Made by a program: the position numbers and the translations under genes. Positions 23,651 through 40,179 of a DNA stretch of 51,739 nucleotides are shown here, in pieces. Origin of the DNA: Halococcus salifodinae DSM 8989 (GTDB lineage: Archaea; Halobacteriota; Halobacteria; Halobacteriales; Halococcaceae); the NCBI RefSeq assembly GCF_000336935.1, contig NZ_AOME01000054.1, positions 229,659 through 281,397 on the forward strand. The letters run 5' to 3'. The notes under the pieces were generated by a model. The model did not search any database and was not told where the DNA came from. It saw nothing but the letters and a program-made list of their open reading frames with translations. Every line of letters starts with the position of its first letter. The first letter of the stretch is position 1.

Positions 23651-24367
23651 TCACTCGGTCATCGAGTCGTGACCGTCGACGACCGCGCCACCGACGATCT
23701 GGCCGTAGGCTCGGCGGAACCGCTCGGAGAGCGCCTGGTGGGAGATGTCGAGGTCGTCGGCGAGATCGGCCGCTGTGACCGCGCGGGGCACTTCGTAGTA
23801 GCCCGCCTCGTACGCCGCGACCAGTGCCTCGCGCTGCTCGTCGGTGAGGTCGAACCGGCCACCACGACTGCCGCCGTACGTGCCGATCCGTTCGAGTTCG
23901 GTCCCACACTCACAGTCCACGATCGCCTCGTACGCCCGGGCGAGGGCGTCACGATCGGGAAACAACAGCTGGAGTGTCCACCCGCCGGCCCGACCCCGTG
24001 CCGACAGGATCGTGGCGTCCTCATCGCGCACGCGTTCGACGAACCGGTCTGGATGCTCGCCCCACGCGACGCGGAACACCCAGCCGTCGCCCCGATCGGC
24101 GAGATACTCGATCGCCGTCACCGACGGGTCCGCGCGGAGCGCGGCGGCGATGTCGTCCCGGGTGACCGCGTCACTCCGGATCACGAGCAGTACCCGGCTG
24201 TCCGGGCCGGCGACGGCGGGTTCGAGTTCGACCCGCACGCCCGGAGTGCGCTCGAACAGGGTTTCGAGCGCGAACCCCTCGGCTGTGACCGCGATTCGGG
24301 CCGTCGTCGCGTCGGATTCCGTGGATGCGTTCGGGTGTGGCTCGGGCGTCGACACCTGCTCACCCAT
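23651..24367 (-). CDS. HTH_10 (Bat-like) transcription regulator
   Basis: A 238-residue regulator. The N-terminal about 170 residues form the Bat-type sensory domain (GFALETLFERTPGVRVELEP, then AGGWTLQLLFPDRDALARAY). The C-terminal HTH_10 domain (about 178-232) contains LTDEQREALVAAYEAGYYEV and LADDLDISHQALSERFRRAY. The ATG at 24367 lies within the last codons of the zinc-protein gene upstream (8-base overlap, ATGGGTGA), so the two are co-translated. The target is unknown. Confidence 0.9.
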   Translation of the reverse strand: MGEQVSTPEPHPNASTESDATTARIAVTAEGFALETLFERTPGVRVELEPAVAGPDSRVLLVIRSDAVTRDDIAAALRADPSVTAIEYLADRGDGWVFRVAWGEHPDRFVERVRDEDATILSARGRAGGWTLQLLFPDRDALARAYEAIVDCECGTELERIGTYGGSRGGRFDLTDEQREALVAAYEAGYYEVPRAVTAADLADDLDISHQALSERFRRAYGQIVGGAVVDGHDSMTE

Positions 24368-39332: not shown

Positions 39333-39566
39333 CTACACCCGCCGCTCCCGGAGGTAGATGACGATGCTTGCGGCCAGGAACAGCGCCCCGGCGACGCCGA
39401 AGTTCCCCGACGTCATCACCAGTGCGCCACCCACCATCAGCACGGTCGCCACGATCGCCAGCGCCAGCGCGACGGTGTTCACGACCGCCACTCCATGAGC
39501 GTGCGTGTCGGCGATCGGATCGACGGAGTACGGATCGCCGGTCGAGTACCGATCATCGTTAGAAAT
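39333..39566 (-). CDS. Small membrane protein, probable ATT start coupled to the zinc-ribbon gene
   Basis: The open frame encodes two membrane helices (ALALAIVATVLMVGGALVM and NFGVAGALFLAASIVIYL) and ends with LRERRV. The frame stays protein-like upstream (SNDDRYSTGDPYSVDPIAD) but contains no ATG, GTG or TTG before 39491. An ATT at 39566-39564 sits in ATTTCTAA, overlapping the TAA of the upstream zinc-ribbon gene by 8 bases, the same geometry as the ATGGGTGA junction at 24360. Reading from that ATT gives 77 residues. The safe fallback is the GTG at 39491 (52 residues). No named family recognised. Confidence 0.6.
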   Translation of the reverse strand: MSNDDRYSTGDPYSVDPIADTHAHGVAVVNTVALALAIVATVLMVGGALVMTSGNFGVAGALFLAASIVIYLRERRV

Positions 39567-39951
39567 CCTCGAACTCCCAGTGGTAATGACAGTTTCGACA
39601 CGTAGCCCACTCGGGGACGTCGTACGCGTTCGGATGCCGCCGTCCGTGTCGCATGTGATCGTTGCAGACGGGGCAGTGAAGCGTGAGCAGTTCGAGGTTC
39701 GGAAACGCGTGGCGGGTGAACTCGGCGACACATCGGGGGCAGTCGATCGGGTCCATGCCCCCCGCTTGGTAGATCTCGTTCTCACACCGCGGACACTGGA
39801 GGGTGGCTGGCGGGCGCTCGTGCCATCCAACGGCCCCCTCGACCGTCGTGGTCTGGGCCTCCGGGATCGACAGCCGGAAGTTTTCGAGGTCGTCGTCGGT
39901 CCGGAGGGGTGCAATCAGCCGGTCTGCGAGCCACTTGAGACGTCCGAGAAT
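39559..39951 (-). CDS. Double zinc-ribbon protein, probable ATT start
   Basis: A 130-residue protein if read from ATT at 39951-39949. An N-terminal amphipathic region (LGRLKWLADRLIAPL, then DDDLENFRLSIPEAQ) precedes two CPRC knuckles (CPRCENEIYQ and DCPRCVAEF), a third (HCPVCNDHM) and a fourth (CRNCHYHWEF), making two zinc ribbons. The first ATG in frame (39756) would delete the first CxxC and about half the protein, although the frame upstream is clearly coding. No ATG/GTG/TTG exists between 39756 and the upstream stop; a CTG at 39978 is another option. Promoter GCCTTATTACC is at about 39998-40008. Possible nucleic-acid or protein-binding role; family not recognised. Confidence 0.68.
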   Translation of the reverse strand: MLGRLKWLADRLIAPLRTDDDLENFRLSIPEAQTTTVEGAVGWHERPPATLQCPRCENEIYQAGGMDPIDCPRCVAEFTRHAFPNLELLTLHCPVCNDHMRHGRRHPNAYDVPEWATCRNCHYHWEFEDF

Positions 39952-40179
39952 GGTGTCTCTTGAACGATCGTTTCTCAGCGACTGCTACGCGAACCCTGGT
40001 AATAAGGCACACGCCCATTCGCCGAACGTGGGCGGCCGAACGGACGGCGAGACCATCGCCGATTTCGAGCGGTTCCCGCCGGCTCACGGCTCGCATCTGC
40101 GCCGACGGAAGGACAGCGGAGACCGTCGACCGCACGACCGCCGATAGGATCTTCCGGCCGGAGCAGGTACCGAACCACC

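Follow-up and report, generated by a model that had tools for sequence, protein, structure and literature searches.

An accessory double zinc-ribbon gene of Halococcus salifodinae DSM 8989 carries ATT where its close full-length orthologs carry ATG. Judged from the aligned orthologs, this ATT (position 39951) is a lineage-specific ATG-to-ATT change, and the same comparison indicates that one gene, not two neighbouring ones, has changed its start codon. We hold it somewhat probable that the change is recent and leaves the gene with weak or no expression, which would make it a loss or near-loss and not a regulated start. A control survey of start codons also identified a family of BAT/HTH_10 regulators which, as its aligned sequences suggest, probably has a conserved AUU/AUC start.

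The zinc-ribbon gene and its start codon

The window, i.e., the whole stretch of 51,739 nucleotides analysed here, belongs to contig C54 of the draft genome G000 (4.2 Mb in 109 contigs, 99% complete) and has a GC content of 58–69%. The features discussed below are the following, in positions of the window, with G008 and G002 denoting two close relatives:

39559–39951, minus strand: double zinc-ribbon gene with 130 codons and a stop when counted from the ATT (open frame, ortholog alignment)
39949–39951, minus strand: ATT aligned with the start codon of the orthologs, which is ATG in G008 and G002 (ortholog alignment)
39976–39978, minus strand: in-frame CTG, which is TTG in G008; G002 has a 1-base indel and lacks a start codon here
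39985–39987, minus strand: in-frame TAG closing the frame upstream
39754–39756, minus strand: earliest ATG of the frame, at codon 66 when the ATT is codon 1; G008 and G002 conserve it
40000–40006, minus strand: TATA-like CTTATTA (CTTATTACCAG at 40006–39996), conserved in G000, G008 and G002 (alignment)
39333–39482, minus strand: small membrane protein gene, 49 codons, start GTG at 39482 (ortholog start position)
39564–39566, minus strand: ATT once proposed as the membrane-gene start, really within the last codons of the zinc-ribbon gene

The zinc-ribbon frame is open from 39984 to the TAA at 39561–39559 (minus strand) and includes both CTG 39978 and ATT 39951. Between the TAG at 39985 and ATG 39756 it holds no in-frame ATG, GTG or TTG, as a preliminary description of this DNA had reported. 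That description had also regarded the gene as coding well upstream of ATG 39756, and the distribution of substitutions over the three codon positions agrees: from ATT 39951 to ATG 39756, the counts are 5/2/15 against G002 and 4/4/13 against G008, and the region is therefore coding. The protein contains eight cysteines arranged in four CxxC pairs, all of which are invariant in a 13-row ortholog alignment. Since C53 and C56 precede codon 66 in this alignment, initiation at ATG 39756 would drop the N-terminus together with half of the first zinc ribbon. The protein stays below the cut-off of every Pfam zinc-ribbon family (best PF02150, 20.4 bits against a cut-off of 25.2), nothing in NCBIfam scores above cut-off, and a search against PDB folds gave no match at E 0.001 or better. 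Its AlphaFold model has a mean pLDDT of 73, with residues 8–36 under 50.

Matches to the gene are found in 14 of the 60 genomes searched and in 12 of the 18 genomes of the family (own genome included in both counts), which characterizes it as an accessory gene. The closest orthologs are those of G008 (92% identity), G002 (88%) and G006 (87%); the last is unusable for the start codon as a contig end cuts the gene before its start. The preliminary description had proposed to compare the ortholog codons, and both close full-length orthologs (G008 and G002) carry ATG aligned with ATT 39951, followed by LGRLKWLA in all. It is because these two carry ATG that the ATT is read as a change specific to the lineage of G000; among the three close genomes readable at this position it occurs in G000 only, and the non-canonical codon is thus not conserved between species. 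Furthermore, the first codons and the leader of the gene are closely conserved between G000 and G008. For more distant relatives, the alignment begins a few codons inside the gene; they apparently start upstream at an ATG or GTG of their own and are uninformative on the exact codon. A scan of a genome collection for further orthologs returned two loci, of which the real one lies in the MAG Halobacteriales archaeon SW_9_67_24; the other, a match in Prevotella, was taken as chance.

With the spacing typical of haloarchaea, the RNA start is placed by eye near 39976, leaving a leader of roughly 20–25 bases before the ATT. No Shine-Dalgarno (SD) sequence precedes ATT 39951: within the last 20 bases, the longest match to AGGAGGTGATCC is GATC, 4 bases long and 14 bases away. 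The leader also contains a perfect 10-base palindrome, AACGATCGTT (39963–39972, minus strand), which is identical in G008 and altered in G002 and may mean nothing.

With G002 as the outgroup and the start codon excluded, 7 of the 16 changes on the G000 branch are nonsynonymous, as opposed to 74% expected without selection (P 0.009; one of the seven is an intermediate step in a double change that is silent overall). The G008 branch is similar (6 of 16). For codons 2–65 on the G000 branch alone, the count is small (three nonsynonymous and two synonymous changes). These patterns suggest that the gene has been constrained for most of the G000 branch, which fits either a recent loss or a continued use of the ATT.

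The neighbouring membrane gene starts at GTG

According to the preliminary description, the downstream membrane gene likewise lacks a normal start and begins at an ATT in an octamer overlapping the upstream stop codon. In fact, its frame has GTG at both 39491 and 39482. Orthologs are present in 14 of the 18 family genomes, own included, and the equivalent of 39482 is GTG in all four close members (own included) and ATG in G003, G009 and G004, while G010, G011, G013, G015 and G017 have an ATG one codon before the lined-up start. For G005 and G007, the alignment resolves neither ATG nor GTG among the 30 codons listed, and a TTG lies one codon before the lined-up start in both. These ortholog starts exclude ATT 39566 as the start of the membrane gene. 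The octamer itself, ATTTCTAA at 39566–39559, exists as described, but it is the tail of the zinc-ribbon gene (Asp-Phe-stop), the ATT being contained in its GAG GAT TTC TAA.

Two relatives carry ACTTCTGA in place of ATTTCTAA, followed by indels before the real membrane-gene start. Between the zinc-ribbon stop and the membrane-gene GTG, G002 and G006 show a 1-base and a 10-base indel, and because of these the stretch before the GTG is not conserved as coding. The sequence cited for comparison at 24360 is present in the window (ATGGGTGA at 24367–24360). As the orthologs of the membrane gene start at the equivalent of GTG 39482, the idea that two adjacent genes share an oddity no longer holds, and deliberate regulation thereby loses its main argument.

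Rarity of start-codon changes

The control survey set 1.22 Mb of G000 against 1.12 Mb of G008 and 0.21 Mb of G002. It retained frames of at least 75% identity whose substitutions follow a coding pattern, resulting in 398 pairs with G008 and 98 pairs with G002, two sets that overlap on C54. The first shared start was ATG/ATG or GTG/GTG in the great majority of pairs. After sorting by eye, the zinc-ribbon gene and a BAT/HTH_10 regulator were the two genes in the 398 and 98 pairs judged to have a coding stretch but no canonical start in at least one genome. Frames dropped by eye included apparently non-coding or antisense ones (e.g., C54:212093, C78:74338 and C70:147589) and those with short extensions before an ordinary start. 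Further frames were dropped as contig ends (C78:2 and C78:87388), as a partial match of related but different genes (C15:114776), for an upstream ATG in one genome only (C15:81444) or as a broken gene (C79:32767). In the last case, an aldehyde dehydrogenase-like gene by its look (G000, C79:32767–33553), about 300 N-terminal codons are missing in frame relative to G008; the gene is possibly broken, or the assembly is at fault. In the excerpted text of a study of genome triplets, a single AUG-to-AUU switch is counted among 61,358 ancestral AUG starts (PMC5622118).

A regulator family with a probable AUU/AUC start

The second gene lies outside the window (G000, C70:165463–166158; locus L222 of the family loci L222–L269) and encodes a protein that passes the Pfam cut-offs for both PF04967 (65.3 bits, cut-off 23.1) and PF15915 (28.7 bits, cut-off 25.8). 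In G008, its start region reads TAG GAG GGG CCT ACC ATC CTC ACG, with no ATG, GTG or TTG before the conserved N-terminus; the corresponding regions are TGA TCA TCG ATT CTT in G001, TGA TCA GCG ATC CTT in G003 and ATG CTC in G005. A search across the order detected the family in 38 of 243 genomes and provided 30 loci, including those found earlier, with ATT (16), ATC (11) or ATG (3) as the aligned first codon. Adding five of 11 plasmid loci and five of seven further loci (the other two being repeats) gives 40 loci with 18 ATT, 18 ATC and four ATG; GTG or TTG occurs at the aligned first codon in none of the 40. By their coordinates, five omitted plasmid loci come from strains already represented by genome loci. 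L253 from a plasmid of Halobacterium hubeiense (ATT, 7-base SD) stands outside this count, to which it would add one ATT.

Several features suggest that the protein starts at this codon. In 21 of the 36 ATT/ATC loci, a stop closes the frame no more than about four codons upstream, and in 26 of the 36 there is no ATG, GTG or TTG between the in-frame stop and the codon. The other 10 have one; in G000 and some other loci, this is a GTG inside the SD itself. Residues 2–8 form the first strand of the folded domain in the AlphaFold model of the regulator (mean pLDDT 87, as compared to 67–75 for the other four models), so the N-terminus belongs to the protein. In the 30-locus set, ATT makes up 16 of the 27 ATT and ATC codons at the start position versus 30% of those inside the same genes (P 0.0015, from loci that are not independent). 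On a tree of 35 rows, in which several inner branches are weak, ATT and ATC replace one another (9 and 8 changes), three changes account for ATG, and GTG or TTG never appears.

Database starts of these proteins vary. The plasmid records annotate the start at codon 14 in Natrinema zhouii, N. salinisoli, Haladaptatus caseinilyticus and Halostagnicola larsenii, codon 18 in Halobaculum roseum, codon 24 in Halorussus halophilus and codon 110 in Halobacterium hubeiense; it lies upstream in Halarchaeum and Halobaculum halobium, and coincides with codon 1 in the two ATG members. At L252–L258, L260 and L261, loci on plasmids of named haloarchaea, the database starts fall on internal or upstream canonical codons, leaving proteins up to 109 codons short (Halobacterium hubeiense). 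Such misplacement would be the expected behaviour of gene finders when the true start is not an allowed one.

With a criterion of at least five matching bases located 3–9 bases from the codon, an SD precedes 30 of the 36 ATT/ATC loci as opposed to 59 of 387 ordinary ATG genes of G000. Because related loci are not independent, this enrichment is overstated by its P value of 4e-17. One of the four ATG members of the family has an SD. The ATG loci L229 and L246 show a TATA-like match at −30 to −32, as if leaderless, and in most ATT/ATC loci with such a match it lies at about −38 to −54, the leader being short in many loci. Start codon and leader type may therefore change together in this family. 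The gene downstream of the regulator encodes an ABC-transporter substrate-binding protein in all 11 plasmid records. The gene on the upstream side varies, leaving no shared upstream open reading frame from which to shift frame. Frameshifting or read-through is thus an unlikely origin of the regulator's N-terminus, given the different upstream genes in the 11 records and the short leader.

Taken together, we consider it likely that Haloarchaea truly initiate at AUU and AUC, in a regulator kept across several families behind a short leader with an SD, as a counterpart of infC and sigR with deliberately weak initiation. The general idea of ATT as a start codon in haloarchaea, brought up in the preliminary description, is thereby strengthened. 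Excerpts from related experimental work report that the SD in the Haloferax volcanii sod leader, a different leader, is dispensable for an AUG start and that an 8-base SD even lowered translation (PMC3986360), and that aIF1 of Sulfolobus promotes discrimination against non-canonical starts (PMC6237735). Conserved AUU/AUC starts in haloarchaea were not found reported by title or abstract in the open literature, which most subscription-journal papers lie outside.

What the ATT of the zinc-ribbon gene means

The codon change, the intact zinc-ribbon frame and the normal membrane-gene neighbour are direct observations. The course of events that we favour would begin with one base change, G to T, in the genuine ATG start of the accessory gene after the split from G008. 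The TATA-like box, the short leader and the reading frame are intact, with neither an SD nor another usable start nearby. AUU initiates only weakly, and expression of the gene would accordingly be very low or absent, a loss or near-loss of function that appears to be recent, with the downstream membrane gene unaffected through its own GTG start. In the excerpted Haloferax volcanii experiments, a UUG start yielded no detectable product and GUG 5–37 times less than AUG; the UUG failure came from a reporter with a leader of 0–4 bases, unlike the leaders considered here (PMC4574771).

Alternatively, AUU 39951 might be a working low-level start from which a protein is still made and useful. This possibility, to which we give appreciably less weight, draws on the intact frame with all its cysteines, the constraint on the G000 branch and the regulator family, which has a member in G000 and appears to start at AUC/AUU. 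The regulator loci nevertheless differ from the zinc-ribbon gene in the SD, which is absent at 39951 and present at 30 of the 36 ATT/ATC loci, and even UUG fails in the haloarchaeal reporter as excerpted (PMC4574771). Where initiation at AUU and AUC in Haloarchaea is accepted, the ATT of the window would be a young outlier lacking an SD, and it is doubtful that it works as a start. For the same gene, the infC-like regulated reading of the preliminary description is weakened, because the ATT lacks both conservation and an SD.

An assembly or sequencing error, or a minor population variant, with G as the real base is improbable: the genome is a draft in 109 contigs and C54 contains 12 N, but the rest of the gene bears no signs of poor sequence, its frame being unbroken and its other changes following a coding pattern. 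Even less can be said for initiation upstream at CTG 39978, which is in frame and close to the predicted RNA start but not conserved (TTG in G008; neither a start codon nor the same frame in G002). UUG gave no product in the excerpted Haloferax volcanii work (PMC4574771). That two neighbouring genes start at ATT for regulation is hardly credible, since both triplets exist in the sequence but the zinc-ribbon ATT is not conserved, the orthologs of the membrane gene start at GTG 39482 and the region upstream of it is not conserved as coding.

Implications and comparison with known systems

Taken alone, the window gene is a small curiosity, an instance of a type of change counted about once in sixty thousand, and the regulator family from the control survey is the more valuable result. 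If the regulator starts at AUU/AUC, archaea would use near-cognate starts in a conserved way, the SD may do real work in a group where it was found dispensable for an AUG start (PMC3986360, as excerpted), and the database starts of the regulator proteins would be wrong by up to 109 codons. Through this family, near-cognate initiation in archaea becomes testable with reporters.

In its paired CxxC motifs, the zinc-ribbon protein resembles double zinc ribbons such as the RPB9 type (PF02150, PF12773), but its matches to them are weak and all below the Pfam cut-offs, and no PDB fold matches at E 0.001 or better. Its start-codon change is the same type of event as the AUG-to-AUU switch counted once for genome triplets in the excerpt of PMC5622118, which takes up no individual example. 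In infC, with AUU in E. coli and ATC in Streptomyces, the excerpted account describes a conserved start that is self-regulated through IF3 (PMC5472188). In contrast, the ATT of the window is confined to one lineage, has no SD and belongs to a gene that is not an initiation factor. The closest match to the regulator family is Streptomyces sigR, which in the same excerpt starts at GTC behind the ribosome-binding site AGGAGGTG (PMC5472188). Both are transcriptional regulators that begin at a non-canonical codon behind a long SD and whose starts are misplaced in databases, whereas sigR differs in being bacterial, in using GTC and in being repressed by IF3 (PMC5472188). The zinc-ribbon gene of the window has the odd codon in common with sigR, but not the SD.
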